A stretch of 64,000 nt of DNA from Vampirovibrionales bacterium. Lineage in GTDB: Bacteria; Cyanobacteriota; Vampirovibrionia; Vampirovibrionales; Vampirovibrionaceae. A program made the position numbers and the translations under genes. The stretch spans positions 62,001 to 126,000 of the forward strand of contig JAJCZA010000023.1 of the NCBI GenBank assembly GCA_029262635.1, written 5' to 3'. The notes below the pieces were generated by a model. It made no database searches. It was not told where the DNA came from and worked only from the letters and a program-made list of their open reading frames with translations. Shown one piece after another: positions 44,831 to 62,670 of this stretch (position 1 is its first letter; the number at the start of each line of letters is the position of its first letter).

Positions 44831-44912
44831 TAAAAATAGGGCAAGTCAGATGTTTTAGGAACGTTATCTTATTGATAAGCAGCAATGAAAGGTTCTGAAC
44901 CATGCAAATAAC
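44831..44912 (+). repeat. duplicated leader, copy 1
   Basis: This is an 82-base segment from TAAAAATAGGGCAAG through the start codon and first codons of the gene at 44902. It is repeated, with about four substitutions and one indel, at 45482-45564 in front of the paralogous gene. It contains TTATC-TTATT-GATAA (a short hairpin). Confidence 0.85.
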
Positions 44913-45468
44913 GGCTTCCTCTCCAACCACTCATACCATACCCCAAGGGCAACCTAAATTTGGGCATTTGGCGAATAAAAAAGAGTTTGAAGAAATTAAA
45001 GCAATAGCTAGCGCTCAAGGTTTGAACAGTGACAAGCTAAATCCCCATTTTGCGATTATTAACGGGAAAGGCGGAATGTTAAAAGCTATTCAGGATGGAG
45101 TAGTTAACAAAGATACATTTAATAATTATAAACAGTGGCTTAGTCGGGTAAGTATTCCGTTTGTTTCACAACCTTTTATGGTGACTCTGGAGAACACCAA
45201 GGATCCTCAAATGGTGGATAAGTTTTTAAAGACGACTCCTCAAGAAGTTGATTCCATGAATGTTGCCGAGTATAAGATGCTTAACCCTGCCAAAAGTCGA
45301 GGTAAATCGGATACCCAAGTTCTTCAGATGGTCTTGGATGAAAGCCCGTGTGCTGTGTATGTGTATAAAACAGGACCAAAACAGTTACTACTTCTTCAAG
45401 TTCCTTATGAGCGAGAGGATAAGCCCAAAGTAGAGCCTGATATGTTGCTTTATCAAAAAACGAAATAA
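44902..45468 (+). CDS. FG-motif protein, tandem paralogue 1
   Basis: This encodes 188 residues beginning MQITASSPTTHTIPQ and then GQPKFGHLANKKEFEEI. No transmembrane helix or signal peptide is visible. The body is mixed alpha/beta with a conserved centre (QPFMVTLENTKDPQMV with KTTPQEVD) and an end GPKQLLLLQVP. It is paralogous to the next gene: QPKFGHLA-x-KKEF, QPx-MV-x-L and GPKQxLxLL are shared. A family of N-terminally FG-tagged proteins is common in this lineage by my recollection, but the function is unknown. Confidence 0.75.
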   Translation: MQITASSPTTHTIPQGQPKFGHLANKKEFEEIKAIASAQGLNSDKLNPHFAIINGKGGMLKAIQDGVVNKDTFNNYKQWLSRVSIPFVSQPFMVTLENTKDPQMVDKFLKTTPQEVDSMNVAEYKMLNPAKSRGKSDTQVLQMVLDESPCAVYVYKTGPKQLLLLQVPYEREDKPKVEPDMLLYQKTK

Positions 45469-45481
45469 GAGGCTTTGCTTC

Positions 45482-45564
45482 TAAAAATAGGGCAAGTCAG
45501 ATGCTTTAGGAACGTTATCTTATTGATAAGTAGCAATGAAAAGGTTCTAACCCATGCAAATAAC
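45482..45564 (+). repeat. duplicated leader, copy 2
   Basis: This is the second copy of the leader at 44831-44912, located directly after the first gene's stop and extending through the MQI codons of the second gene. The duplication therefore covered the promoter/leader and the coding region. Confidence 0.85.
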
Positions 45565-46138
45565 AACGTTTACTCCAACCTCAGTCTCTCAAGCGACGCC
45601 CCAAAAGCAGCCTAAATTTGGCCACTTGGCGAGTAAAAAAGAGTTTAGAGAAATTCAAAATATTGCTGGGAAATTAGGGATAGAGAGTAGTGCTTTAAAC
45701 CCAAATTTTACTCTTGTTAATAACCAAAGTAGAATTCCCTTTTACAATTTTTTTAGATGGAGAATACCGAATCTCCTAGCGCTTAAAAAAGCGGCTAAAG
45801 AGTATGGAGAATTCCTTCAAGGAGATAGTATTAGGCGGCTTCAGCAACCTTTAATGATAGTGCTTCAAAACTTTCCAACCCAAAAGAGCAAAAATAAATT
45901 TTTAGCTATCACTCCCAAGGAAGAACTGAAAGCAATTGTATCGGGCCTTAAAAAAATTGATCCTCAAGCTTTCCGGGGAAGAACGGATGATGAAATCGCT
46001 CAATATGTTTCAGAAAACTCTATTTCTTATAAGAAATATGAATCAGGACCCAAACAGATGCTTATTTTACTTAATCCCAAGGGTTTTTCAATGAATAGAG
46101 AGGACTTTTATCTGATTATCCCATTCGACAAGTTGTAA
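45554..46138 (+). CDS. FG-motif protein, tandem paralogue 2
   Basis: This encodes 194 residues beginning MQITTFTPTSVSQATPQ and then KQPKFGHLASKKEFREI. Relative to paralogue 1 it has an insert rich in aromatic and basic residues (FYNFFRWRIPNLL, about residues 62-74) and ends with NPKGFSMNREDFYLIIPF. The core (QPLMIVLQNFPTQKSKNKFL, TPKEEL, FRGRTDDEIAQYV and GPKQMLILL) aligns throughout with paralogue 1. It shares the duplicated leader. It is convergent with the small membrane gene at 46273-46539. Confidence 0.75.
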   Translation: MQITTFTPTSVSQATPQKQPKFGHLASKKEFREIQNIAGKLGIESSALNPNFTLVNNQSRIPFYNFFRWRIPNLLALKKAAKEYGEFLQGDSIRRLQQPLMIVLQNFPTQKSKNKFLAITPKEELKAIVSGLKKIDPQAFRGRTDDEIAQYVSENSISYKKYESGPKQMLILLNPKGFSMNREDFYLIIPFDKL

Positions 46139-46644: not shown

Positions 46645-46760
46645 CGCCAAATCATCAAGATAACCCTCCAAAAGGTCGACTTCAGAGCCAAGCCTGACAG
46701 AAGGTCAGGTCAATGCATTTTGCTGAACATATTGCTGAACATAACTACGAGGAAATACGC

Positions 46761-47858
46761 ATGCGACTCCTGTCCGAAAAAACTTTGAGAAACCTGTTCG
46801 CCCTTAGCTTCTCGATGGTTCTGTTTACCAGCACGATAGCAGAGGTGAGTTGGGGCGATATGGTGGTTGAGGATTTAAAAACGCCGGTAACCGCAGTGCT
46901 ACAAGAGGAATTAAGCGTTGAAACTACGCAGGCAGGTAGCTCGTTTACCGCCATTACTCAGGAAGACTATCTCTATAAAACCAGTATTCTTCCGGCAGGT
47001 TCCCGCATTATAGGTAAAGTAGAAAAAGTAAAAAAATCCAAGCGACTGGGACGGCCGGGTTATCTTCAACTAAAAATCACCCAAGTGGAATTTCCGGATG
47101 GGCAAATTTTTACCATGCCAGAAACCGTGTTGAATAAAAGAAACAAAGAGAAAAAAGTAAAAGCTCAGCGACATTATCACCCAGAGGCTAAAACCAAAAG
47201 CGGGATGATGAAATCCAACATGGTCTCCATGATCGCAGGATCCTCGACAACTATCGCCCTAACCTCTGTAGGCACGTTTTCATCACCTTACGCACTAGGT
47301 GCTCGGGTGGTGGCCGGCGCCATTTGGGAAGGGTTTAAAGGAGATAAACAAAAACCTCTGTATAAGCGCCTAGCCAAAGGGGGCTGGCGAGGTACCGGTG
47401 TTCCCGGTATGTATTACTATATTAAAAAAGAGCCCAATCCGAACTTTGAAGCCAACGCCGATATTGAATTACACATGAACCCTTATGCGTATGAAGAACT
47501 GCTGAAGGCCAATGCCAATCCCGATGCTGATTGGGAGAATCCCGATTTCAAACGGGTGAAATGGGATGATTATGACTCGCTGGATAACTACGCTAAAATG
47601 GCCGAGCAATTGCAAGATGTACCCGAAGCTGTTTTAACTGTAAAAGCTCAGCCTCAGCCGAGTTCGTCGCCCAATACCTCAGAAGCCCGAAAGCCCTCAA
47701 GAGAAGAAGTCTATTCGCCGGATCCGAACGAACCTGTTTTTACACCGTCACCTGCCGTTCCAGATAAAGGAGCCTATGACTACTTGCCGCCTGTTCCGGG
47801 GCAGGAACAGGAAAAGTCATCGACGTCAGCGGAAGACACCGGATTGAGATTCTTTTAA
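46761..47858 (+). CDS. secreted LPAG-domain protein with Pro-rich tail, paralogue A
   Basis: This encodes 365 residues from the ATG at 46761 (GAGGAA nine bases upstream); the frame is open to 46713. A signal peptide covers about residues 1-30. A beta-rich domain follows with LPAGSRIIGKVEKVKKSKRL, GRPGYLQLKITQVEFPDG, and GTGVPGMYYYIKKEPNPNFE. The last ~75 residues are Pro/Ser-rich and disordered. The order LPAG-x-G-x-RPGY-x-PDG-x-G-G-PG is shared with the gene at 50541. It resembles VirB10/TrbI-type barrel edges only faintly. It overlaps the convergent HTTM gene by 33 bases. Confidence 0.75.
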   Translation: MRLLSEKTLRNLFALSFSMVLFTSTIAEVSWGDMVVEDLKTPVTAVLQEELSVETTQAGSSFTAITQEDYLYKTSILPAGSRIIGKVEKVKKSKRLGRPGYLQLKITQVEFPDGQIFTMPETVLNKRNKEKKVKAQRHYHPEAKTKSGMMKSNMVSMIAGSSTTIALTSVGTFSSPYALGARVVAGAIWEGFKGDKQKPLYKRLAKGGWRGTGVPGMYYYIKKEPNPNFEANADIELHMNPYAYEELLKANANPDADWENPDFKRVKWDDYDSLDNYAKMAEQLQDVPEAVLTVKAQPQPSSSPNTSEARKPSREEVYSPDPNEPVFTPSPAVPDKGAYDYLPPVPGQEQEKSSTSAEDTGLRFF

Positions 47859-49607
47859 TAAACAGGATTCTTCCCAGATAAAGACGCGCTGAAAAGCTTC
47901 GCCGTGGCTGTTGGGCGGCGGTGTGCTTTTTTTTAAAAAATAGAGCCTAAGCTGATTAAATTCAGGACTATTTTTCTCCTTTAATTTTTCCCGGCATAGG
48001 TAACGGGCGTATTGCCGGACGAGTCCTGGCTTGATCTCTGGGAATGTTATAAAGACCATCCACTTTGTCCAGCGTTCCTGACCATGATAGTGGAGAGCTT
48101 CTTGAGCCTGAATCTGGCCATCTTTCATAAGAAACAGGCCCGCCTCCTGTGTCTCTTTCATGGGATATGGGGCAAACATGCTCCAAGACTGACCCAGGCC
48201 AAAGGCCGTTGTGACCCATTGAAGCGGTAGGGACAATGACGGACTTTCGCCTCGCATGACCTGAAGGCTAAGTAAGTTCATAAAGACCATGTACCCCGCT
48301 AAAACAATGGCTATTAAAGACATAGCGATGTTAAGTAAAGGCTTGTTCTGAGAAGAAATCGAACGCCAACAGAGCCATTGAGAGAGCTGAAATAGCTGGG
48401 GACGATGATTGGCAACCTTTTCATAGAGAGCGTTGGCTAAGGTTCTCTGCCATTGTAAAACAGGCGCCATAAAAAACAGCCATGGCGATTGTTGGAGACA
48501 GAAGGTGAGTGCATCTGCTTTTAGCATCATGTCACCTTGAGCGGGCTGAACGATCCATGAATGATGGGTTTTCATGAGCGGGTTATAAATAGGAGAATCT
48601 TGAGCGGGCTGTAGCTTGACGTGAGGCAGGATTAAAAACTCCCGAAGTAGATACACCCCTTTTTTGCAGACCCGGCATTCGCCATCGTAATAAAGGCTAA
48701 AAGACGGCTTAGATGCAAAGAGGCTCTTCTTTTTTTCCTCCCACATCGATGAAGGAATTAAAGCAAGCAATGTGACGAGGTTGATCCATGGAAATAACCC
48801 GAGATAAAAGGCCGCTCCAAAACACAGGTTGAGTAAAGCCAGCAGAAAAATAACACCCCATCGGCAATCGTCATTTTTCCATGGAGAAAGAAGAAAAAGA
48901 GGCCCAATGAGTTCCAGGTAATAAACCACAGAGGTGAGCTGAGGGAATTGACTCGTCAGATTCATAAAAAGCGGGGCCAGCGGGGTGGTGATGGTGTGGA
49001 TACGAAGAGCGTAATAGACGGCCGAATTTTCGGCATGCCATTCAGCGCCTGTTTTGAGCAGAGCGGAAAAAACATAAAGGCAGATCACCTGAAGGGTCAA
49101 TGCAACCGTTCCCCCAGAAAAAACCTTGGACGAAGGCAATGTCGATGGATTTTTGTTTAATGCGGCATCCACGGAAAACATTTGGCTCAGGGGCAGAAAC
49201 ATCGACCAAAACAAGAGATGCCGAAGTACTTCATCACCACCGGTTAAAATAACTGGTGCCCGATTTTGCAGGGATAATAGCAAAGCCCATGAGAGGAACG
49301 TAACCCATCGGGTATGGTAGCCGATGAGTAAGAAGAGGGCCGCCAACAGTTGAAGGATAAACAGTAGAAGCTGAATGCTAGCATCACCGCTGATAAGGTG
49401 CAGACTCCAGCCGCCGGGAATAAAAAAGAGATCCACCACATCGGCACGAGACAGTAAGCCACCGTCCGTGTAAAAGGCGGACAAATCGCCCAGCCGCCGA
49501 AGGAGGTCAATGAATAATATGCCAGCGAGACCGATCCGAAAAACGGCCAGTGAGCGATAATCGAGACTAAACGTTTTTCGAAATGAACGAAGTGTCTTTA
49601 ACCACAT
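47826..49607 (-). CDS. HTTM membrane protein fused to a DCC thioredoxin-like domain
   Basis: This encodes 593 residues. The N-terminal ~270 residues start with YRSLAVFRIGLAGILFIDLL and contain about seven hydrophobic helices, as in the HTTM (vitamin-K-dependent carboxylase-like) family. At about residue 305, FSLYYDGECRVCKKGVYLLR is the start of a DCC (DUF393) thiol-disulfide domain with the D-G-x-C-x-x-C motif. Another hydrophobic stretch and a soluble tail follow. HTTM-DCC pairs are seen together in other bacteria, consistent with an envelope redox role. It is nine bases downstream of the SLH gene. Confidence 0.85.
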   Translation of the reverse strand: MWLKTLRSFRKTFSLDYRSLAVFRIGLAGILFIDLLRRLGDLSAFYTDGGLLSRADVVDLFFIPGGWSLHLISGDASIQLLLFILQLLAALFLLIGYHTRWVTFLSWALLLSLQNRAPVILTGGDEVLRHLLFWSMFLPLSQMFSVDAALNKNPSTLPSSKVFSGGTVALTLQVICLYVFSALLKTGAEWHAENSAVYYALRIHTITTPLAPLFMNLTSQFPQLTSVVYYLELIGPLFLLSPWKNDDCRWGVIFLLALLNLCFGAAFYLGLFPWINLVTLLALIPSSMWEEKKKSLFASKPSFSLYYDGECRVCKKGVYLLREFLILPHVKLQPAQDSPIYNPLMKTHHSWIVQPAQGDMMLKADALTFCLQQSPWLFFMAPVLQWQRTLANALYEKVANHRPQLFQLSQWLCWRSISSQNKPLLNIAMSLIAIVLAGYMVFMNLLSLQVMRGESPSLSLPLQWVTTAFGLGQSWSMFAPYPMKETQEAGLFLMKDGQIQAQEALHYHGQERWTKWMVFITFPEIKPGLVRQYARYLCREKLKEKNSPEFNQLRLYFLKKSTPPPNSHGEAFQRVFIWEESCLLKESQSGVFR

Positions 49608-50288: not shown

Positions 50289-50540
50289 GGAGTAGCCCCT
50301 TTCACAGATTGAATCACTTGATTGTAGTGTAAATAAACAATACAAACAAATGGGGTTCTATATTGACGGCAACGACTTGTATCTCATCGATTTGACCCTT
50401 TTTTGTTACTAAAGTCTATTTTTTCATTTTAATGACTCGTGTGATGTGGTAGTTTTATGAGCAAGTGAGCAGGGTGGCTGTGTTCGATCCGGCTCTTTGG
50501 CTGTTGAACTGAATGATTGTCAGTAGAGAGAAAGATAAAC

Positions 50541-51275
50541 GTGATAAATTCGTTAAAAACGCATGTAGGAATGGGCCTAGCGGCTCTGTTAATTGCTGCT
50601 CTGAGTGTGCCGCTCCCGGTGAGTGCAAAACAAACCTTGAAAAGCCTGAAGGAGCCGCTAACCTTACAAATGACAATGGCACTGGAAGGCAAAGCTACCG
50701 TGGAAGGTGATATGTTTCAGGCTGTATTGACCGAAGATTACGACTACGAAAAGTGGACTCTTCCGGCGGGGACAAAGTTTTCCGGCCGGATTACCAAATC
50801 GAAAACGTCACACCATATGGCACGTCCGGGTTATGTGGTGATGGACATTACGGAAGCCACACTGCCTGACGGGACCTCTGTGGCGTTGGCGGATTATCAA
50901 AACCGAAATAAACCGGTGGTTCATAAAGATGCAAATACGGTGAAGCGAGTGGTTTATAACGGGCTTCCTTTTTTCCTTGTCAATGCCGCGACAACACTGC
51001 CTCTGCGTTTAGTTACAACCGTACCCGGCATGCCCATTGGCTTTGCCAGTAAAATGGCGCTAGGGGTTGCCAAAGAATACCACCGGAAGGACAAAGATAA
51101 AAATCGACCAAATGGTCATAAAGTGGGTTATGGCGTTCTTGTTGGAACGGGGCTACCTGGTATTATGTTCACAGCGGCCAAACGCCCTGAACCTGACCTG
51201 AAAGCTGGTGATAACATCGATGTGTATCTAGAGCCTGAGGGGTTACTTCAGGTGTTTGAAGCGAGTACGCCGTAA
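50541..51275 (+). CDS. secreted LPAG-domain protein, paralogue B
   Basis: This encodes 244 residues from a GTG at 50541 (TTG at 50517 is an alternative). The signal peptide ends PLPVSAK. The domain includes WTLPAGTKFSGRITKSKT, ARPGYVVMDITEATLPDG, an Ala-rich helical stretch, and GTGLPGIMFTAAKRPEPDLK, matching paralogue A (46761) in order and spacing. It lacks the Pro-rich tail of paralogue A. It is followed by a long terminator at 51340-51390. Confidence 0.75.
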   Translation: MINSLKTHVGMGLAALLIAALSVPLPVSAKQTLKSLKEPLTLQMTMALEGKATVEGDMFQAVLTEDYDYEKWTLPAGTKFSGRITKSKTSHHMARPGYVVMDITEATLPDGTSVALADYQNRNKPVVHKDANTVKRVVYNGLPFFLVNAATTLPLRLVTTVPGMPIGFASKMALGVAKEYHRKDKDKNRPNGHKVGYGVLVGTGLPGIMFTAAKRPEPDLKAGDNIDVYLEPEGLLQVFEASTP

Positions 51276-51639: not shown

Positions 51640-52647
51640 ATGCTGACTGATGAACGACTAAAGTGGGTGGATGGATTACTGGGAACGATTTCTCTTTTAG
51701 GTTTTTTGGGAGGCGTGGGGAGCCATGTTTGGTTTCTAGAACTATTCCGGCATTTTTCCCTACAGTATTGGGTACTAAGCTTTCTGGCGTTGGCGATTCT
51801 CTTGGTCCGATGGGATGAACGCCGATTACGCTATTGGTTGCTTCCGCTACTGCTTTGCCTTATGGTGCATGGCAATCAACTGCACCCATATTTCTTTCCG
51901 TCGAACATCAAACCAACTTCAGGTGTTGAGGCAAGTAAAACACCTCCCCTGAAGTTATTACATATGAATGTGTTGAAATTCAATCAGAACTACCCAGCGG
52001 TGGCAAAGGTGATCCGAGCCGATCAGCCTGATATTTTATCCCTTCAGGAAGTCGATAAACGCTGGCTAAAAAAACTGAATGAATTAGGGGCTTTGGATAA
52101 TTATCCACACCGGGCGGTGCACCCTTCAACGGAAAACGGGCTATATAGCCGAATTCCAATGGATTCTTTAACAACAGAGCTTGTCCCGAACGCGCAGGAC
52201 GGAATTTTTATCGAGCGAGGTGAAGGCAGTATTCTGGTGGCCCGGTTTAAATGGCATAAGCAATCGGTAACACTACTGAACTTTCATCCGGCCACCCCGG
52301 TAACGCCGGGACAGTACCAAGGGCAGCAGCGTCATTTTGAAACCCTGATCCAAAAACATCAGGCAGAACCCGGCCATGTGATTGTGGTGGGCGATTTAAA
52401 CACCACCCCGTGGTCGGCAGGGTTTCAGAAAATAACAAGCCAATTAGGACTTCAGGACGCTCGTCAAGGAAAGGGACTTCAACCGACATGGCCTGCTTTT
52501 TTCCCGTTGATGGCTATTCCCATTGATCATGTGCTCACGTCATCCCATGTTGTCACACAAGCTCAACGGGTTGGGCCGTTTGTTGGGTCGGATCACCTAC
52601 CCATTTATATCGAACTGGGTTTTTTGCCCCGGAATCCGGTAAAATAA
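51640..52647 (+). CDS. membrane-anchored endonuclease/exonuclease/phosphatase protein, paralogue 1 of 4
   Basis: This encodes 335 residues. Hydrophobic helices (about 10-35, 41-57 and 63-81) precede an EEP domain: KLLHMNVLKFN (catalytic Asn), LSLQEVDKRW (metal-binding Glu), LLNFHPATP (His), VVGDLNTTPWS (Asp/Asn), PIDHVL and FVGSDHLPIYIEL (final Asp-His). All catalytic positions are present. EEP enzymes cut phosphodiester or phosphomonoester bonds in nucleic acids, lipids or sugars. The soluble domain probably faces outside the cytoplasm. Confidence 0.88.
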   Translation: MLTDERLKWVDGLLGTISLLGFLGGVGSHVWFLELFRHFSLQYWVLSFLALAILLVRWDERRLRYWLLPLLLCLMVHGNQLHPYFFPSNIKPTSGVEASKTPPLKLLHMNVLKFNQNYPAVAKVIRADQPDILSLQEVDKRWLKKLNELGALDNYPHRAVHPSTENGLYSRIPMDSLTTELVPNAQDGIFIERGEGSILVARFKWHKQSVTLLNFHPATPVTPGQYQGQQRHFETLIQKHQAEPGHVIVVGDLNTTPWSAGFQKITSQLGLQDARQGKGLQPTWPAFFPLMAIPIDHVLTSSHVVTQAQRVGPFVGSDHLPIYIELGFLPRNPVK

Positions 52648-52654
52648 AGGGCGT

Positions 52655-53629
52655 ATGATGCCTGCTATTATTTTTATTCTGCGTGTTACGGCCTTGCTTC
52701 TATTAGGCTTTAGTATGGCTGGCTTTTGGGGGGGTTGGAGCTCACTGTTTGATTTGGCTTGTCACTTTCGGGTGCAATACACCATTATTGCAAGCATACT
52801 TCTACTCATGGCCGTTGCGAGCAAGCAATGGCTCGTCGCAGGTATCGCAGGAGTCTGCCTTTTAACCAATGGGTTTGTTATTTCGCCTTATTATAAGCCT
52901 CAGAACGCTAACGAGATGAATGTGAGCCGGTTGTCACCTCCAATTTCCTTGCTTCATCTAAATGTGCTTAAAGTGAATTCAGGAAAAGCAAGCGTTCTAC
53001 GCCTGATTCAGGAAAAAAAACCCGACTTGGTTTCTCTGCTGGAGGTCGATAAAAATTGGATTGATAGACTAAACCCTGTGTTAAACGATTACCCTTATCA
53101 ATTGGCTCAACCTCAGGATGATAATTTTGGCATTGCTTTATATAGTAAAATTCCACTGAAGAATATGTCCGTTATCTATTTCGGCAAGGATTTTCATCAG
53201 CGTTATTTCCCTTCGATTTATGCTGAAAGCAAGGATGAGCGACTGAGTATTCTGGTAACCCACCCCTTGCCACCGATCTCTGGATTTGAGGTGAGAAACA
53301 CCCAACTTCGAGAAATCGCAAAGGCACGGACGGAGTGGTATGACAATGCGCTTGTGGTTGGGGATCTGAACATTACCCCGTGGTCGGTCTTTTTTCAGCG
53401 TTTCTTATCAGAAAGCGACCTTCGGGATTCTCAGAAGGGGTTTGGAATCCAGCCTTCATGGCCAACAGCTTATCCGTTGTTGGGAATCCCCATTGATCAC
53501 GTGTTGGTAAGCCCGAAAATTCAGGTAACGAAACGGGAAACAGGGCCGTTTGTCGGATCCGATCATTTGCCGGTTTACGTGGAACTTCGACTTCCGGCAG
53601 ACGGTCAATCTGAGATTCAGGTAGAATAG
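52655..53629 (+). CDS. membrane-anchored EEP protein, paralogue 2 of 4
   Basis: This encodes 324 residues (two adjacent ATGs at 52655 and 52658). The layout is the same as paralogue 1: helices near the start (SLFDLACHFRVQY is shared by all four as a linker), then SLLHLNVLKVN, LVSLLEVDKNW, VTHPLPPIS, VVGDLNITPWS, PIDHVLVSP and FVGSDHLPVYVEL. The key residues are intact. It lies seven bases after paralogue 1. Confidence 0.88.
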   Translation: MMPAIIFILRVTALLLLGFSMAGFWGGWSSLFDLACHFRVQYTIIASILLLMAVASKQWLVAGIAGVCLLTNGFVISPYYKPQNANEMNVSRLSPPISLLHLNVLKVNSGKASVLRLIQEKKPDLVSLLEVDKNWIDRLNPVLNDYPYQLAQPQDDNFGIALYSKIPLKNMSVIYFGKDFHQRYFPSIYAESKDERLSILVTHPLPPISGFEVRNTQLREIAKARTEWYDNALVVGDLNITPWSVFFQRFLSESDLRDSQKGFGIQPSWPTAYPLLGIPIDHVLVSPKIQVTKRETGPFVGSDHLPVYVELRLPADGQSEIQVE

Positions 53630-53673
53630 TAAGATTCGGTTGTCTTCGCTAAAACGGAAGGAGTTTGAATTCC

Positions 53674-54408
53674 ATGAAACACGCCCGGCAAGTTATTTAT
53701 AAGGCGTTGCGATGGCTATTGATGATTGCTCTTGTGGTGTGCGGCGTTAGTGGAATAGGAAACCAAGAGCGAGCCAACGCGAAATCCATGGGATTGAATC
53801 CGCTGTTCGACACTGAAGCACCTCAGGGGTTCAAGGTATTGCAGCGGGGAAGTGTCCCCAAGGCAACGGGTAAAAAAGGCCGCTATCTGCTGATGACGAA
53901 TCCGAAGACCAAAACCATGGCACTGGTTATAGAAGTAATTCCCCGAGATGTGATCCAGCCGAAGCCGGGTACCTCACTGAATACCCACGACTTGAGCCAA
54001 CTGACAGAATATTTGCTGAAACAATTTGTGGGGTTGGGCGATTTTAAAATCAATGTGGAAAAAGATCGCTGGCTTCGGCTGGAAGGCGATCCTTTTTTTC
54101 ATACCCAATGGCTTCGAATTAAATTCAAGGACGGCTTTGAAGAAGCGGACACAGTGATTCGTTTGCATTACCCTCAAGGGCGCCAAACCATTCTATTGAT
54201 GGGGCGACCGGCGACTGGTGGGTATGATGATTGCCCCACGCTTCGCAAAGATTATTTTATGCTAGAAAACCAGAGCATCGATTTAATTCAAACGTATCAC
54301 TTGGAAAAGGACGCTTTCGGGGACATCGAATTTAATAGGCTAAGCCATTACCTGGGAAACCTGTTTAAGAGTCACCTGAAAAAGAACTGCTTTGTTGATG
54401 AAAGATAA
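53674..54408 (+). CDS. membrane or secreted protein of unknown function within the EEP array
   Basis: This encodes 244 residues from the ATG at 53674 (AGGAG 11 bases upstream; TTG at 53665 is an alternative). A hydrophobic N-terminus (about 13-30) is followed by DTEAPQGFKVLQRG and a mixed beta sequence (LLMTNPKTKTMALVIEV). This start resembles the AGATSAIFGETAPEGYMAMF part of the gene at 56495. It sits between EEP paralogues 2 and 3 and overlaps paralogue 3 by 11 bases, so it is likely part of the same operon and function. Confidence 0.7.
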   Translation: MKHARQVIYKALRWLLMIALVVCGVSGIGNQERANAKSMGLNPLFDTEAPQGFKVLQRGSVPKATGKKGRYLLMTNPKTKTMALVIEVIPRDVIQPKPGTSLNTHDLSQLTEYLLKQFVGLGDFKINVEKDRWLRLEGDPFFHTQWLRIKFKDGFEEADTVIRLHYPQGRQTILLMGRPATGGYDDCPTLRKDYFMLENQSIDLIQTYHLEKDAFGDIEFNRLSHYLGNLFKSHLKKNCFVDER

Positions 54409-55432
54409 AACGGTTAATACCCATAAAAATAGTTATTCCGGTAGAAAAAGGTTAAATTTTCTTTTTATAAGCTTTTTGGCAGTTCCGTTTTTTATGGCGG
54501 CTCTACTTAGTGTGTTGTCTTTTTTAGGGGAGCGACACTGGCTGTTTGATTTAACCGCCCATGGACGATTGCAGTACTTTCTTTTTTTTCTGTTAGCTTT
54601 TGGTGTTTGTATCGCCTTACGGAAAAAAACGGGGGTGGCTATTTCACTGGCCTTTCTTGTAGCGCATGGCATGACAATTTTACCGTTTTACTGGCCCATG
54701 GCCGAAGAAAAAGCGCTGGGAGATCAGCCGTCGATTAAAATTCTGCAGGCTAATCTCTGGGGGAGGGCCGGACGTTTGCCCTGTCAGAATTTGCTGATAC
54801 AAACTCAAGAAAAACAGCCGGACGTATTAACGTTAGAAGAACTCTCGCCCGCCTGTCATCAAGTGCTCATTGAAGCCGGAATTGAGCAAAAATATCCTTA
54901 TGCCCAGCACATTGAAGCCACTCGAATTTCTTTGTACAGCAGAATTCCTCTGAACGCCTCTCGGATTCAATTTGTCCATGCAGGCAACGGCTCATCGATT
55001 ATTGCTGAATTAAACTTAGGAAAGCGGCCTATTTTATTGCTTATGGCCCACACCACCCGCCCCATAAACGCTGCGTCAGATCAAAACCAGAAACAGCATT
55101 TTAAAGAAATGGCAGACATTATTCAGCATCAACGTTTACCTGTGATTGTAGTGGGGGATCTCAATACCACGCCCTGGTCGGTGGTGTATCGACACTTTAT
55201 GACGAAAACAAGCTTGGTAGACACACAAAAGGGTCGAGGGCTTCAACTCTCTTGGCCTGCGACATATCATGTTCCACCCATTCATTTACTGCCGTGTTTG
55301 TTTGGTATTGATCATGCACTGGTCAGCCATGATTTCTATGTCAAACAGCGCGAGCTGGGTCAACGCATCGGATCGGATCATCTGCCCCTGTTTATTGAGT
55401 TGACTCTGGATGCAGAGGCGGGCAAGGGGTAA
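54398..55432 (+). CDS. membrane-anchored EEP protein, paralogue 3 of 4
   Basis: This encodes 344 residues from the ATG at 54398 (two in-frame TTGs precede it). It has hydrophobic helices at about 18-40 and 51-82, then KILQANLWGRA, VLTLEELSPAC, LMAHTTRPI, VVGDLNTTPWS, GIDHALVSHDF and RIGSDHLPLFIEL. It keeps the Asn, Glu, His, Asp and His catalytic residues. It diverges more than the others around the His loop. Confidence 0.87.
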   Translation: MKDKTVNTHKNSYSGRKRLNFLFISFLAVPFFMAALLSVLSFLGERHWLFDLTAHGRLQYFLFFLLAFGVCIALRKKTGVAISLAFLVAHGMTILPFYWPMAEEKALGDQPSIKILQANLWGRAGRLPCQNLLIQTQEKQPDVLTLEELSPACHQVLIEAGIEQKYPYAQHIEATRISLYSRIPLNASRIQFVHAGNGSSIIAELNLGKRPILLLMAHTTRPINAASDQNQKQHFKEMADIIQHQRLPVIVVGDLNTTPWSVVYRHFMTKTSLVDTQKGRGLQLSWPATYHVPPIHLLPCLFGIDHALVSHDFYVKQRELGQRIGSDHLPLFIELTLDAEAGKG

Positions 55433-55452
55433 AATCCCGGTATAATAAAGGA

Positions 55453-56451
55453 ATGCTCATTCAATTTCCCTCTGGAATTTCAACCCGAATCAACGCATGG
55501 CTGACCCATAAACGGGTCCGCTTGTTGGTCAAGGTCATGTTAGTTTTGATTTGTGTAATGACCTGTACCGGTTTTACAGGGCATTGGAGCTGGGTGCTGG
55601 ATTTAACCAGCCATTTTCGCTTGCAATATATGATGGTTCAGGTACTCTTTGCCGGGCTTTTTATTTTTATGCGACGACCACTTTGGCTACTAACCATGCT
55701 GATTTTTTCGATAATTAACGTGGTTCAAATTTTACCCTTTTATGTACCCCCACCTAAAATACGTGCTCACGGACAGTCCATTCAAGTTTTGCATTTGAAT
55801 GTGTTTCGTTTTAATGGGGAGCATCAGCGGGTTCTGAATTATATTGAAAAGACCCATCCGGATTTTATATCCCTAGCCGAGTTTGATGCAAACTGGATTA
55901 AGGCGACCCAAGATTCGGCCGTCTTAAAGCAGTTTCCCTATCATCAGATAGATGCTACTTCCCGCCTGGCCTTATTTAGCCGTTATCCTTTGAAGCAACT
56001 GGACTTTATTCCCGTGGCGCCCGGACAAAGCGAAGGACGGGACGCCTTGATTATCGCCCGGTTTGAGCTGGACGACGAATTAGTCGCTCTCGCTTTAATG
56101 CATCCAAAGCCACCGATTCTGCCGTATTTGGTTCAACGACAACAGGCCCATTTAACAGAACTAAAAACACGTTTACCCACCTTTCCCAAACGGTTTATTT
56201 TACTGGGTGACTTTAACATGACCTCTTGGTCGGCTGTGTTTCATCGCCTAACTCATGACATGGGTGTTCGAGATACTCGTTTAGGACTTGGTTTACAGCT
56301 ATCCTGGCCGGTTCATTCGCCGTTGATGATGCTACCGATCGATCATGCCTTGGTGACGGAGGGTTGGGTTGTTCTTTCACGACACACAGGTGAGTGGGTT
56401 GGCTCGGATCATTTACCTGTACATCTGACATTAGCGTTAAATAAGGTATAA
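55453..56451 (+). CDS. membrane-anchored EEP protein, paralogue 4 of 4
   Basis: This encodes 332 residues. Helices at about 26-45, 53-72 and 76-97 precede QVLHLNVFRFN, ISLAEFDANW, ALMHPKPPIL, LLGDFNMTSWS, PIDHALV and WVGSDHLPVHLTL. It uses Phe and Ser in the Asp loop (DFNMTS) where the others have Leu and Pro. Catalytic residues are otherwise intact. It is the last EEP gene; the accessory gene at 56495 follows. Confidence 0.87.
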   Translation: MLIQFPSGISTRINAWLTHKRVRLLVKVMLVLICVMTCTGFTGHWSWVLDLTSHFRLQYMMVQVLFAGLFIFMRRPLWLLTMLIFSIINVVQILPFYVPPPKIRAHGQSIQVLHLNVFRFNGEHQRVLNYIEKTHPDFISLAEFDANWIKATQDSAVLKQFPYHQIDATSRLALFSRYPLKQLDFIPVAPGQSEGRDALIIARFELDDELVALALMHPKPPILPYLVQRQQAHLTELKTRLPTFPKRFILLGDFNMTSWSAVFHRLTHDMGVRDTRLGLGLQLSWPVHSPLMMLPIDHALVTEGWVVLSRHTGEWVGSDHLPVHLTLALNKV

Positions 56452-56494
56452 TGGCTTTAATTCGTCTTTGTTTTAAATAGGGTGGACTAAAATA

Positions 56495-57154
56495 ATGGAT
56501 AAAAAGTGGCTTATTGGCTGTGGCGGCTGTTTGGGTGTTGTTTTAGTGATTGTTGTTGCCGTTGCCGGGTTAGGATACTGGGGAGTTGATACACTGGTTA
56601 AAGGCTCAGCGGGCGCAACAAGTGCGATTTTTGGTGAGACCGCGCCAGAAGGCTACATGGCGATGTTTGGAATGAAAGATGACACGGGTGAAGGAACAAC
56701 CATGGTGATGATGGTAGGGCCTGATTCAGGAAACGTACTGATCGGACTGGAGACACCTGCCGACAAAACTGAAATGGAGGCGTTTCAGTCAGGCGATCCG
56801 GAAAAGCTAAAACCCTTAATTAACAAGGCACTATCGAATGGCGGCGATAGCGTGGATAACCTGCAAACCTTAGGAATGGACACACTCAACACAACGGCAG
56901 GTAATGTTTTGGCTATTCGTTTAAGCGCAACAAGCAATAGCGGAAAAACGACACCGGCGCTGGTCAGTTTATTGCCTTTGCAAAATAGTCGACTGAAACT
57001 CGCTATTTTGATCAATGGCAACACACGCTCTTCGAGAAGTGACGCCTTGTTTGAAGAAGATTTTGAGTTGATGCTTCGGGACATGACAGACTTGATTAAC
57101 GGAACCGATATCGCTCAAAATATTATTCCCCTAACGGCCTCGATAGAAGACTAG
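56495..57154 (+). CDS. membrane protein with N-terminal CGGC motif, accessory to the EEP array
   Basis: This encodes 219 residues. The N-terminal GCGGCLGVVLVIVVAVAG is a helix with two Cys, commonly seen in small anchored proteins. GETAPEGYMAMFGMKDD resembles the start of the unknown gene at 53674. The remainder is a hydrophilic domain with DTLNTTAGNVLAIRL. AGGGTGG lies upstream of the ATG. Convergent with uvrA. Confidence 0.65.
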   Translation: MDKKWLIGCGGCLGVVLVIVVAVAGLGYWGVDTLVKGSAGATSAIFGETAPEGYMAMFGMKDDTGEGTTMVMMVGPDSGNVLIGLETPADKTEMEAFQSGDPEKLKPLINKALSNGGDSVDNLQTLGMDTLNTTAGNVLAIRLSATSNSGKTTPALVSLLPLQNSRLKLAILINGNTRSSRSDALFEEDFELMLRDMTDLINGTDIAQNIIPLTASIED

Positions 57155-57193
57155 GGAGCTAAAAGAAACTCTGACCACGACACCGGTTATTTT

Positions 57194-60091
57194 TTAAAGC
57201 GCTAAAACCGTTTTTAAAAAGTGTCCGGTGTAAGAGTGGGTTACATTGGCGACTTCTTCCGGCGTACCTTCCGCCACAATATAACCGCCTGCTTCGCCCC
57301 CTTCAGGGCCCATGTCAATCAGGTGATCAGCAACCTTAATAAGATCCAGGTTATGTTCAATGACAATCACGGTGTTACCTTGTTCCACCAGTCGATTCAG
57401 GATCAGAATCAGGTTTTCCAGATCCTTCCAATGCAGTCCCACCGTGGGTTCATCCAGAAGGTACAGGGTTTTACCCGTGTTTCGTTTCATGAATTCCGTG
57501 GCCAGTTTCAGGCGTTGAGCTTCGCCTCCAGACAGAGTCGTGGCCGGTTGCCCCAGCGTAATATACTCAAGTCCGACGTCACGTAGAGTGTTGAGATGAC
57601 GATAAATTTTTTGTTGCGCCTGAAAATAGTCACAGGCCTCTTCAACCGTCATGGCTAGCACATCGGCAATATTTTTTTCCCGGTACTTCACATCCAACGT
57701 GTCCGGGTTATAACGTTTGCCCTCGCATTGGTCACAATGGATATGTACGTCCGGCAAAAAATTCATTTCGAGAGTTTTGTAACCCGCACCGGCACATTCA
57801 GCGCATCGTCCAACCTTGACATTAAAGCTAAACCGCCCTGCGTTATAACCTCGGATTTTCGCGTCCTCTGTCGAGGCAAAAACCTTACGGATATCGTCAA
57901 AAATGCCCGTATAGGTGATAGGGTTACTTCGTGGAGAACGACCGATGGGCTTTTGGTCGATGTGGATAAATTTATCAATATGCTCTAACCCCTCAAGGGA
58001 CTGAACACCCTGAGGCTTGGCGAGGTGTTTACGAAAATGGTAGCGTAACGCGTTATAAAGCAAACCAAACACGAGGGTGGATTTACCAGAACCGCTCAAG
58101 CCTGTTACGCAAATTAGCTTGCCAAGCGGGAAGTGGACATCCATTCCCTTTAAGTTGTGCTGGGTTACTTTCCGAAGGGTTAGGTTGTTTCCACTTCCAG
58201 AGCGCCTTTGGGTGGGGCAAACAATTTTTTGCTGGCCGGATAAGTAATGGCCGGTGAGCGAAGACGGGTTTTTCTCAATCTGCTGAACCGTGCCTTCCGC
58301 AACAACATGTCCACCATGAACACCCGCACCCGGACCAATATCCACCACCCAATCAGCCGCCCGAATCGTCTCTTCATCGTGTTCCACCACAATCAACGAA
58401 TTTCCGATGTCTCGAAGGCGGCACAAGGTTTGGATAAGTTGTCGGTTGTTATGCTGATGCAAGCCAATACTGGGCTCATCCAAAACATACAAAATGCCTG
58501 ATAAACCTGCGCCCAATTGAGTGGCGAGTCGAATGCGCTGAGATTCACCGCCGGAAAGAGTATTAGAGGACCGAGATAGGCTCAGGTAGCCTAACCCAAC
58601 ATCCAGTAGAAATCGAAGACGGCTTTGGGTTTCTGATAGGGCTTGCTGACCGACAGTTTTCTGAAAATCTGTCAGGGTGTCAGGCAATTGTTCAATAAAG
58701 GGTAAAGCGTCAGCAAGCGGAAGTCGAGTCAGTTCATCAATGTTCTTGCCGCCCAGTTTGACGCTAAGAGGTAAGGGCTTTAGCCGACTGCCCTGGCAGA
58801 TGACGCAAGTTTTTTCCTGCATAAACGTCTGAATATAGTTTTTCGTGGCGTCACTTCCATACAAGTAACGACGACGGAGGATGTTGATAATGCCATCAAA
58901 ATCCGAGACGAAATCAAACCAGTCGTAGTCGTCCTCTGATTCGCTTAGAATAACCTCATCCTGTATACCGTCTTCCAGCAAGATTTTTCCTTCCTCTGGA
59001 CGCTCACCATGAAGCAGTAACCGGCGTTCTGCTTCGTTAAGCTGGGTATAGGGGGTTTCGATGCGCACCCCAAATTTTTTGGCCAGTTTTCGCAGGAAAG
59101 CTTGATAATAGCGTCCTGTTGATTTCTCGAAGGGGGCAATAGCGCCTTCCACCAAGGTTTTATTGGGATTAGGAATGAGCAAGGCTTCGGCAATCTCATA
59201 CTGAATCCCCAGTCCTTCGCAGTCAGGGCAAGCGCCATAGGGTGAGTTAAAACTGAACATCCGGGGTGCCATTTCATCCAGTCCTATGGCGTCAGAGCCG
59301 CCCAACTCATGGCCGTTAGGGCAGGCAAGATGGCTCGAAAAGAACTGTTCATAAGGCTCCTCTCCCAAACGCTGGACAATCACATAGCCATCCGAACGTT
59401 TAATAGCAGACTGAACGGCTTCCCCCAGACGGTTGCGTACCAAGTCGTCATGACGCAGGATAATGCGATCCATGACCACATCAATTTTATGGACTTTGTT
59501 CCGCTCCAGCCGAAAATCGTCTTCCAACTCTTCAAGAAGGTGAATTTCGCCGTCAATGCGTACCCGAACAAAGCCTTCTTTTCGAAATTGCTGAAACAGG
59601 GCATTATAATCGCCTTTCCGTCCCCGAACCACAGGCGAAAGGATTTGCAGTTTGCTTTTTTCCTCCCATGCCCAAATCCGTTCCACAATGCGCTCTGCTG
59701 ACTGAGCGGTGACCTCCGCATGACAGACCGGACAATGGGCAATACCAATTCGTGCATAAAGTACCCGAAGAAAGTCATAAATCTCGGTGACGGTGCCGAC
59801 TGTTGAGCGAGGACTTCGGCTAGCAGTTTTTTGATCAATGGAAATAGCCGGGGACAGACCGTCGATGGCCTCGACTTCAGGCTTTTCAAACTGTCCGATA
59901 AACTGCCGGGCATAGGAGCTCAAGCTTTCCACATAGCGACGCTGACCTTCCGCAAAAATGGTATCGAACGCTAAAGACGACTTGCCTGAGCCGGAAACAC
60001 CCGTAAAGACAATCAGTTTATCTCGTGGCAAGGTTAGGCTGACGTGATCCAGATTGTGCTTATTGGCGTTATAAACAAGAATTTCTTCCAC
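57194..60091 (-). CDS. uvrA: excinuclease ABC subunit A
   Basis: UvrA is the damage-recognition ATPase of nucleotide excision repair. It has two ABC cassettes: GVSGSGKSSLAFDTIF and GLSGSGKSTLVFGLLY are the Walker A sites, and TLSGGESQRIRLATQ and TLSGGEAQRLKLATE are the signature sequences. The second zinc finger is CAECAGAGYKT with CDQCEGKRYN. The first finger reads CPNGHEL and CPDCEGLG, a C-x3-H in place of the usual C-x2-C. The 965-residue length is normal. Translation starts at a GTG. Confidence 0.97.
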   Translation of the reverse strand: MEEILVYNANKHNLDHVSLTLPRDKLIVFTGVSGSGKSSLAFDTIFAEGQRRYVESLSSYARQFIGQFEKPEVEAIDGLSPAISIDQKTASRSPRSTVGTVTEIYDFLRVLYARIGIAHCPVCHAEVTAQSAERIVERIWAWEEKSKLQILSPVVRGRKGDYNALFQQFRKEGFVRVRIDGEIHLLEELEDDFRLERNKVHKIDVVMDRIILRHDDLVRNRLGEAVQSAIKRSDGYVIVQRLGEEPYEQFFSSHLACPNGHELGGSDAIGLDEMAPRMFSFNSPYGACPDCEGLGIQYEIAEALLIPNPNKTLVEGAIAPFEKSTGRYYQAFLRKLAKKFGVRIETPYTQLNEAERRLLLHGERPEEGKILLEDGIQDEVILSESEDDYDWFDFVSDFDGIINILRRRYLYGSDATKNYIQTFMQEKTCVICQGSRLKPLPLSVKLGGKNIDELTRLPLADALPFIEQLPDTLTDFQKTVGQQALSETQSRLRFLLDVGLGYLSLSRSSNTLSGGESQRIRLATQLGAGLSGILYVLDEPSIGLHQHNNRQLIQTLCRLRDIGNSLIVVEHDEETIRAADWVVDIGPGAGVHGGHVVAEGTVQQIEKNPSSLTGHYLSGQQKIVCPTQRRSGSGNNLTLRKVTQHNLKGMDVHFPLGKLICVTGLSGSGKSTLVFGLLYNALRYHFRKHLAKPQGVQSLEGLEHIDKFIHIDQKPIGRSPRSNPITYTGIFDDIRKVFASTEDAKIRGYNAGRFSFNVKVGRCAECAGAGYKTLEMNFLPDVHIHCDQCEGKRYNPDTLDVKYREKNIADVLAMTVEEACDYFQAQQKIYRHLNTLRDVGLEYITLGQPATTLSGGEAQRLKLATEFMKRNTGKTLYLLDEPTVGLHWKDLENLILILNRLVEQGNTVIVIEHNLDLIKVADHLIDMGPEGGEAGGYIVAEGTPEEVANVTHSYTGHFLKTVLAL

Positions 60092-60330
60092 AGCGAGGCT
60101 TTCTAATCGTTGTTACAGGCTGGCTCGTGCTTTTTTTGTCATTCTGATTACCCTAATCAATACCACATTTAAGGGTGATTGCATTCAAGTTTTGCCCAAA
60201 TCTTACGATAACAACTAAAGACGCCAAAATAAAGTTTTTACCAAAGGCTGTGGCGTTAGAAGGAATTGGAAAAAGAAACCGGAATCTCACCCTAGAGTCG
60301 GTTGGAAAAAATCAAGATGGAAAGGATACG

Positions 60331-61239
60331 ATGAGTTTGTTTGATGCTCATTTAAACTCTCAGGAGGCCAGTTCTCAGGAACAAGACACGACTCCAAAAC
60401 GCTCGAAGGAGGCGTTTTTTAAAAATGCTGTTGAAGGCGATGATCCAGCAAGCCCTGTGGACGGACACTTATCGTTGCGTTCGTATATTAAAGAACATAT
60501 CCAGCGCCAGATGGATAGCGACCCTACTAGTGAATCCCGGATTATTCAAGAAAAAAATAAGTTTCACCTTTATCAACCCCCTGTCTTCGATCGAGAATTA
60601 GCCGAAAACCCGTCGTTCGGCCAACAGTTATATGGATTAGACACAGAGCTTAGCTCGGGTATTGAACAATATCTGCCCACGCCAGCGGTTCGTTTACGTA
60701 TTATTAAAGAGCGCTTGAATGGGGAAATTGCAACCCTTGAGGAGCACCTGGAGCAATATCGCGCCATTAAAAAACCATCGTTGAAAGTGGTGGAAAAAAT
60801 TGGACACCTGCAGGCCAAATTAGGTACGTTGCGACACCATGAACAAAAAGTGGACTTAGAACTAATAGCCCTGTTTCATCAGCGTTCATCGTTCTTTCAA
60901 GTGGCAAATACATTTCGGAAGGTTAAAAACCAACTGGATAATACAGCAGAAACGTTACTGCCAGAATTCTCCATAGCCAAGCTATTCTCTAAAATCGACC
61001 CCCTTCGAGAGGAGATGGATGCTTTGAACCTGGAACTCCAAGATTTAACAGCCTTACTGCAAGAACAAATGAAACGCCGAAACATGAACGTAAGTGAAGT
61101 AAGCGATGTTGTTAATCAGTATGATCATACGATTCAGAAAATTGACCGCTTGACCCAACAACTGATGGAACGGAAAAGCTGGTGGAAACGGCTGAACGAC
61201 AGGCTTCAACAAATCTACCGAACAATTTATACCGGGTGA
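60331..61239 (+). CDS. coiled-coil cytoplasmic protein of unknown function
   Basis: This encodes 302 residues from the ATG at 60331 (AAAGGA five to nine bases upstream); the frame is open to 60175. The N-terminal ~130 residues are polar. From about residue 115, long helices predict a coiled coil (ERLNGEIATLEEHLEQYRAI, KIDRLTQQLMERKSWWKRL). No transmembrane segment. The gene is convergent with the TPR gene and divergent from uvrA. Function unknown. Confidence 0.7.
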   Translation: MSLFDAHLNSQEASSQEQDTTPKRSKEAFFKNAVEGDDPASPVDGHLSLRSYIKEHIQRQMDSDPTSESRIIQEKNKFHLYQPPVFDRELAENPSFGQQLYGLDTELSSGIEQYLPTPAVRLRIIKERLNGEIATLEEHLEQYRAIKKPSLKVVEKIGHLQAKLGTLRHHEQKVDLELIALFHQRSSFFQVANTFRKVKNQLDNTAETLLPEFSIAKLFSKIDPLREEMDALNLELQDLTALLQEQMKRRNMNVSEVSDVVNQYDHTIQKIDRLTQQLMERKSWWKRLNDRLQQIYRTIYTG

Positions 61240-61263
61240 TGACACCAGTAAACAAAGATTCTA

Positions 61264-62670
61264 TTATGCTGAATAACCGCTGGGAGTAGTCTCAGGTGTT
61301 GGGTTACGGCTTTGTATCTTAATTTCTTTTAAACCGATGACTTCCCACTCAGCCTGGTCGTCTTGCGTATAGGCAATAGACACCTTAACTCGGAGCGACT
61401 GGCTTTTAATGGCATGGACGTTAATGCGTTTGTCGGGCTTGATAGTCAGACTTTTTAAGCTGGCTTTCCCTTCCTGACCCAGAGGCAAGTCAATGGACGA
61501 AACAATTTCAGTCACTTCGTTAATAACACCGCTATCAGATAGGAACGTCACACGGGCGGCTAAAAAGTTAAGCGGACGATGGGCCTTGTTCTGGATCTTT
61601 AAATGGATCACAGGCAATAGGGTACCGGTTTCATAGTCGATGTTCTGAATGTTAATGTTAAACTCACTTAGTTCGACCGGGTAAATATCTTTTAGTGGCA
61701 GATTGGCCATTTTAAAGACCCGATCAGCCTCCTCGAAAAAGCCTTCAGCCTCCTCACCCTTGTTTTCACCCAAGAGCGATTTACCCTTGGCAATAAGCAT
61801 TCGGGCCAGTTTAATACTCATTTCGTCCGGATTCGCGTCGAATGCCTTACGATACCAGATAATAGCCTTGTCCGTCTGGTTGTCCCGTTCGTACATTTCA
61901 GCCATTTTGGCTAACGTATCAACGTCATATTGGTAACGCAGAGAACGTTCTAATAAAACAATCGCCTCATCCAATTTTTTTTCTTTTTCTTTTTGAATTG
62001 CCTGTTTGGAAATAACGGCAATCAGTTTTTCTTTGAGCTCTTTTTCACTATCATAGTGATTTACATAGGAAAGAGCCTGCTCATATTTTTCCATGGAATC
62101 CAGATAATTTTCTTTTTTCTCCAGGTGGTTGCCCCAATCAAAATAGAGTTCGTACAATGCCTTATTCAGGTCGCGGTCATTGGGCAATTTTTTATAAGTT
62201 AAAAGAAGCTGTTCCTCACCTTCTTGATATTGATGGCGAACAATGGCCAGTTTGCTGGAAGCAATTTCGGCTGAACTGTTATTCAGATTACGAGGCTTCA
62301 ACTCGGCGGCTTTTCGGAAGTGGTATTCGGCTTTTTTCCGATAAGCAGACTCGTTTTTCTGATCACGGCCCAAATCTAGATAGACCTTGCCCAGTTCAAC
62401 ATGACCCTGGTAACTGCTGTGATTAGCCACCAATGTTTCAAGGGTCTGGCGTGCCGCTTCAATCTTTTGCTCAATCACTTGACGCTGACCTCGGGCGAGC
62501 AGGTCGTTTTCATCGGTATTCTGGTAGGTAATAACCCCACCAAAAATAAGGGCCGCAAAAAAAACAGCCAAACCAATGGTAAAGGTGTACTGTCCTCCGA
62601 TCTTCATGAAAAGGTTGTTCAGAAAAAAATTCCGGCTATAGCGGCGGTTTCGATTTCCTTTAAATACCAT
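61264..62670 (-). CDS. membrane-anchored TPR protein
   Basis: This encodes 468 residues. A basic N-terminus with KGNRNRRYSRN precedes one transmembrane helix (about 28-50). TPR or Sel1-like repeats cover about 80-300 (for example YRKKAEYHFRKAAELKPRN, then ALSYVNHYDSEKELKEKL, then AIIWYRKAFDANPDEMSIKL). The C-terminal ~140 residues form a beta-rich domain (LPVIHLKIQNKAHRPLNFLA) like a FxLYD or DUF3426-type immunoglobulin fold. It is downstream of the glycosyltransferase in the same direction and may be co-transcribed. Confidence 0.8.
   Translation of the reverse strand: MVFKGNRNRRYSRNFFLNNLFMKIGGQYTFTIGLAVFFAALIFGGVITYQNTDENDLLARGQRQVIEQKIEAARQTLETLVANHSSYQGHVELGKVYLDLGRDQKNESAYRKKAEYHFRKAAELKPRNLNNSSAEIASSKLAIVRHQYQEGEEQLLLTYKKLPNDRDLNKALYELYFDWGNHLEKKENYLDSMEKYEQALSYVNHYDSEKELKEKLIAVISKQAIQKEKEKKLDEAIVLLERSLRYQYDVDTLAKMAEMYERDNQTDKAIIWYRKAFDANPDEMSIKLARMLIAKGKSLLGENKGEEAEGFFEEADRVFKMANLPLKDIYPVELSEFNINIQNIDYETGTLLPVIHLKIQNKAHRPLNFLAARVTFLSDSGVINEVTEIVSSIDLPLGQEGKASLKSLTIKPDKRINVHAIKSQSLRVKVSIAYTQDDQAEWEVIGLKEIKIQSRNPTPETTPSGYSA

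Follow-up and report, generated by a model that had tools for sequence, protein, structure and literature searches.

Four old, diverged membrane-anchored EEP phosphoesterase genes side by side in a Vampirovibrionaceae genome

The window analysed here, a stretch of 64,000 nucleotides, covers positions 62001-126000 of contig C23 in a 2.99 Mb genome of the Vampirovibrionaceae, a family that presumably includes Vampirovibrio chlorellavorus. It contains an array of four genes, EEP1 to EEP4, each encoding predicted membrane helices followed by an endonuclease/exonuclease/phosphatase (EEP) domain. All four open reading frames are complete and lie on the plus strand. The genes are tightly spaced: 7 bp separate EEP1 from EEP2, 35 bp separate EEP2 from the reading frame at 53665, and 20 bp separate EEP3 from EEP4, while the last 11 bp of the 53665 gene run into the start of EEP3. 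The 53665 gene is the sole non-EEP gene truly within the array. The features of the locus are as follows.

51640..52647, plus strand: EEP1, 335 aa, three predicted membrane helices and an EEP domain (PF03372, E-value 2.9e-26)
52655..53629, plus strand: EEP2, 324 aa, architecture as EEP1 (PF03372, E-value 9.1e-23)
53665..54408, plus strand: 53665 gene, small exported or membrane protein of 247 aa, function unassigned, between EEP2 and EEP3
54398..55432, plus strand: EEP3, 344 aa from the ATG at 54398, architecture as EEP1 (PF03372, E-value 2.4e-16)
55453..56451, plus strand: EEP4, 332 aa, architecture as EEP1 (PF03372, E-value 4.2e-23)
56425..56452, plus strand: promoter-like site, CTGACA-16-TATAAT, 42 bp upstream of the 56495 gene
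56495..57154, plus strand: 56495 gene, membrane-anchored protein of 219 aa, function unassigned, in a conserved uvrA neighbourhood
57194..60091, minus strand: uvrA, in the conserved block that forms the right-hand boundary of the array

EEP1-4 match the PF03372 superfamily by domain score, by catalytic residues and, for the modelled EEP4, by fold. Their scores of 60.6-93 bits (E-values 2.4e-16 to 2.9e-26) exceed the Pfam cut-off of 24.5 bits, which confirms the four paralogues, with helices preceding an EEP domain, that a sequence-only reading of this DNA had placed at 51640, 52655, 54398 and 55453. The catalytic N, E, H, D-x-N, D and D-H positions are kept in all four proteins; in EEP1 they correspond, by the family alignment, to N110, E137, H216, D252, N254, D296, D318 and H319. 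The sequence-only reading had called the catalytic motifs intact. This holds for the residues themselves but not for every motif as spelled, since EEP3 has ANLW for LNV and HT for HP, and EEP4 has GDFN for GDLN. When 110 family members of many phyla were aligned, EEP1-4 among them, each active-site residue (N, E, H, D, N, D, D and H) was present in 105-110 rows. Because every catalytic residue is kept in all four proteins, the array shows no sign of decay. The EEP genes have a G+C content at third codon positions of 0.445-0.469, near the 0.455-0.509 of other genes, giving no sign of recent import. Pairwise identity among the four proteins is 31.7-34.2%, and the membrane parts are less alike (23-31%) than the EEP parts (32-38%), in keeping with the earlier remark that the N-terminal helices are among the most divergent regions. 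A profile search of the whole genome returned five PF03372 matches, the fifth being a 277-codon frame of ExoIII size on a separate contig.

An AlphaFold2 model of EEP4, built with 23 family members, reached a mean predicted local distance difference test (pLDDT) score of 93.5. It features a short N-terminal helix, long helices at residues 20-42, 47-73 and 76-96, and an EEP domain at about residues 109-329, which agrees with the architecture proposed from the sequence. The three-helix topology of EEP1 was read across from this model and the alignment. In a Foldseek search, the model matched TDP2 best (E-value 5.7e-15), with human neutral sphingomyelinase (8j2f) close behind; LINE-1 endonuclease was also among the best matches, and bacterial sphingomyelinases and CNOT6L/nocturnin-type EEPs were matched too. 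A search of a viral structure library gave general EEP matches only. The best match of the family profile among solved chains in the PDB is beta-hemolysin, a sphingomyelinase (E-value 9.7e-10). The second membrane helix carries a motif, H-F-R-x-Q-Y, that is kept across phyla: the histidine is found in 91 of the 110 aligned sequences, the arginine in 84, the glutamine in 80 and the tyrosine in 83. This conservation suggests that the membrane part may have a role beyond anchoring. N-terminal basic residues, and others lying between helices 2 and 3, flank the cytoplasmic ends predicted for the helices; because their placement fits the positive-inside rule, the N-terminus is probably inside and the EEP domain periplasmic.

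To place the array among known systems, we compared EEP1-4 with known EEP families. PF03372 is very broad, and membership does not reveal a substrate. The nearest characterized membrane EEP is VanJ (NF000373), a membrane protein with an EEP domain. EEP1 gives the best score of the four, 34.4 bits, against a VanJ cut-off of 700, and no glycopeptide-resistance context was found for the window's EEP genes. EEP1 also matches NF003842, 'endonuclease/exonuclease/phosphatase family protein' (PRK05421), presumably the YafD-type group, over most of the EEP domain; the score is 38.1 bits against a cut-off of 144, and the NF003842 group is itself uncharacterized. For ExoIII (TIGR00633), the best score among EEP1-4 is 19.8 bits, under the cut-off of 99.05. 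Assignment to the VanJ, YafD-type or ExoIII families was discarded, as all scores fall below the curated cut-offs. Sphingomyelinases (sphingomyelinase C/beta-hemolysin and the human neutral enzyme) provide the best PDB profile match and one of the top fold matches, but share only about 14-16% sequence identity in structural alignments. Bacterial sphingomyelinases are secreted, soluble enzymes; sphingomyelinase C has no membrane helices, whereas the window's EEPs have three predicted helices before the EEP domain. A further cluster, comprising GlcNAc-PDase, Cwh43 and PGAP2IP, contains EEPs that act on, or are linked to, sugar- or lipid-borne phosphodiesters, and its GlcNAc-PDase lacks membrane helices (PMC10704324). 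EEP3 matches the Pfam PGAP2IP C-terminal domain weakly, not significantly and below the cut-off (E-value 0.015). None of the family models we met names this kind of membrane EEP, and no paper among those consulted gives its substrate.

The family is widespread. At a threshold of E 1e-25, it was found in 68 of 156 genomes of the class. A genome gives at most five hits, and some hits are fragments. Other genomes of the Vampirovibrionaceae hold between 0 and 4 full members, none of them side by side, and within the order, G002, G006, G008 and G014 carry several copies on separate contigs. One copy in a Vampirovibrio relative (L050 476-1483, on G008:C126) contains a single in-frame TAA stop; it may be a pseudogene, or an assembly error, which is possible because the contig is short (3.4 kb). 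Adjacent same-strand pairs occur in three class genomes (G084, G078 and G124), and G055 has an opposite-strand pair about 1 kb apart. A wider set was made up of the best 80 loci among 84,980 species genomes; one of them (L149) holds a tandem pair, and in this set the family reaches Planctomycetota, Verrucomicrobiota and Omnitrophota. No run of three or four was found outside the window in the 156 class genomes or these 80 loci, although contig breaks may conceal some arrays. Several copies per genome are therefore common in the class, contrary to the earlier statement that such EEP genes are usually single, and it is their side-by-side placement that is rare. Conserved clustering, which the sequence-only reading had proposed to look for, was not seen: relatives are multi-copy, and their copies are dispersed.

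Approximately unbiased (AU) tests rejected EEP1-4 as one clade, both in the wider set (p 0.0018) and with EEP-domain columns only (p 0.00016). In the EEP-domain tree, a branch with support of 99/98 parts EEP2 from EEP1, EEP3 and EEP4. The EEP2 side also holds G006 L059 and G002 L048, along with EEPs from other phyla; the opposite side holds other Vampirovibrionales copies. EEP3 groups with G014 L056/L055 and G008 L052, with support of 95/81 in the wider set and 93/86 in the EEP-domain tree. EEP1 and EEP4 as sisters are acceptable (p 0.46) and may represent an old duplication. Since EEP2 stands apart and the four do not form one clade, EEP2 is, on these trees, of a different old lineage from EEP1, EEP3 and EEP4, and the array unites at least two old lineages. 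It is either ancestral, with dispersal elsewhere, or was assembled in this lineage.

Homologues of the 56495 gene adjoin uvrA in all five relatives examined (G004, G005, G006, G007 and G008), and no EEP gene is adjacent to the homologue in any of these. The window's uvrA is 62.5-64.6% identical to the uvrA genes concerned. On its other side, the homologue is flanked by a prfC-like gene in three relatives, a Tex-like gene in one and its own paralogue in one (names assigned by inspection). The surrounding block, 56495-62670, consists in the Vampirovibrionaceae of the small membrane protein, uvrA, the 60175 protein and a TPR protein (61264), and is conserved in the five relatives with one orientation change. 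The promoter-like site shows 11 of 12 consensus matches, where about 0.07 such sites would be expected on this strand of 7.1 kb; its position 42 bp upstream suggests a separate transcript for the 56495 gene. Judged from the conserved synteny and this site, the 56495 gene belongs to the uvrA neighbourhood, and the EEP array simply lies next to that neighbourhood. The product of the gene gave no significant match in sequence searches of Pfam and PDB; its predicted structure is of moderate quality (pLDDT 73.8) and matches DcrB weakly (E-value 7.9e-5). The 53665 protein has no significant Pfam match and one homologue among 58 genomes, in G008, distant from EEP genes. It is a remote homologue of the 56495 protein within one unnamed family (hhalign E-value 7.3e-7, probability 91.8). 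Given its overlap with EEP3, co-translation of the two is possible in this genome, though the arrangement is not conserved. A Pfam scan of 62 same-strand neighbours of EEP homologues found only three kinds of domain more than once, TPR, rhomboid and beta-lactamase-like, in two or three neighbours each. The 53665 and 56495 proteins were dismissed as EEP partners on the basis of synteny in relatives. Hence the sequence-only reading was right that a run of four EEP genes is unusual, but not in counting the two proteins as accessory to it.

Elsewhere in the window, 44902-45468 and 45554-46138 form an adjacent pair of paralogues with a near-identical N-terminal stretch, QPKFGHLA(N/S)KKEF. Similar short F-G/F-S-G motifs, a pattern chosen post hoc, occur 8 times in 14,100 N-terminal residues (the first 75 of each protein) versus 7 times in 55,191 others, and could be an export signal. 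The genes at 46713-47858 and 50517-51275, which flank HTTM and SLH genes, encode exported proteins that look paralogous by eye (common LPAG...RPGY...PDG). In the product of 47826-49607, a Pfam scan found an HTTM domain and a DCC1-like thiol-disulfide oxidoreductase domain joined in one protein.

We consider it probable that the array brings together, in a lineage-specific way, four old and diverged membrane EEPs, which act as inner-membrane-anchored, periplasm-facing phosphodiesterases on phosphate esters of the membrane or envelope. The three helices would seat each protein in the inner membrane, with its N-terminus inside and its EEP domain in the periplasm. There, the EEP domain would use divalent metal ions to hydrolyse a phosphodiester or phosphoester bond, by analogy with the metal-dependent phosphodiester cleavage typical of the superfamily (PMC10704324). 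Likely substrates would be phosphate groups at the membrane surface, such as phospholipid, polyprenyl-linked or lipopolysaccharide-type head groups, and the four copies may be differently tuned. Membrane or envelope phosphate esters are favoured over nucleic acid on three grounds: the polar motif conserved in the membrane part, the probable position of the EEP domain in the periplasm, and a profile match of sphingomyelinase type. Several points weigh against this reading. The three-helix topology is a prediction, modelled for EEP4 only, and the membrane-surface substrate is something we infer rather than observe. The operon-like character of the run is read from gene spacing. The placement of individual copies is uncertain because the wider-set tree has long branches, of about 1.1-1.6 changes per site, and EEP1, EEP3 and EEP4 as a single clade are borderline rejected (p 0.054). 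Finally, TDP2 and LINE-1 endonuclease are among the best fold matches, which leaves room for a periplasmic or surface nuclease.

Membrane-tethered periplasmic or surface nucleases that degrade nucleic acids, whether to scavenge nutrients or, given the kinship with the algal predator Vampirovibrio, to digest prey, seem unlikely to us. EEP domains resemble TDP2, LINE-1 endonuclease and ExoIII by fold or profile, and such enzymes would fill a gap, as the V. chlorellavorus genome paper counts 106 proteases and peptidases and lists no DNases (PMC4451040). On the other hand, the family occurs in the three phyla named above, which are not known for predation, nothing marks the source organism as a predator, no EEP of the array scores above the ExoIII cut-off, and a simple tethered nuclease would not need conserved polar residues in a membrane helix. 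About equally improbable is a special case of the reading we prefer, in which the enzymes protect or recycle lipid-linked cell wall intermediates as VanJ might. VanJ is a membrane protein that raises teicoplanin resistance by a mechanism reported as unknown (PMC4790382, PMC6001138). It is among the best NCBIfam matches of EEP1 and weakly matches 10 of 23 family members, yet the scores lie far under its cut-off. Moreover, the source genome (G000) already has a BacA-type undecaprenyl pyrophosphate phosphatase. A PAP2-type phosphatase was not found in it, but PAP2 is likewise missing from most genomes of the order, with or without these EEPs. The idea that the EEPs stand in for PAP2 lipid phosphatases was dropped, as presence of the two showed no significant association across 58 genomes (Fisher p 0.11, uncorrected for relatedness).

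The proposal of the sequence-only reading, in which four EEPs and two accessory proteins form a dedicated envelope system of several components, now appears very unlikely. Tight spacing on one strand and the remote homology between the 53665 and 56495 proteins speak for it. Against it, relatives keep the 56495 gene beside uvrA, the gene has a promoter-like site of its own, the sole detectable relative of the 53665 protein is not near an EEP gene, and no neighbour family turns up in more than two or three cases. Least credible of all is a recent tandem duplication of one gene into four redundant or decaying copies. The head-to-tail layout, the local tandem pairs elsewhere in the class and the possible sisterhood of EEP1 and EEP4 would suit it; however, it is refuted by the identity of only 32-34% and the AU tests, and every copy is full length with all catalytic residues intact. 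The sequence-only reading had itself named recent decay and poor catalytic conservation among the findings that would undo it, and neither was found.

We conclude that the locus is a real, rare arrangement of an enzyme family that is common among bacterial phyla and poorly characterized, and does not on present evidence amount to a new multi-component system. The uvrA-linked 56495 gene also illustrates that a conserved neighbour is readily mistaken for part of one. A bolder interpretation, which we regard as unlikely, is that three-helix EEPs with the H-F-R-x-Q-Y motif are an unnamed, phylum-crossing group of periplasm-facing lipid-head-group phosphodiesterases, and that this operon would combine four enzymes of differing specificities, from at least two old lineages, to jointly remodel several envelope lipids or glycans. 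Whatever their role, four diverged natural variants lying adjacent in one genome offer a ready comparison set for the substrate and specificity of the family.

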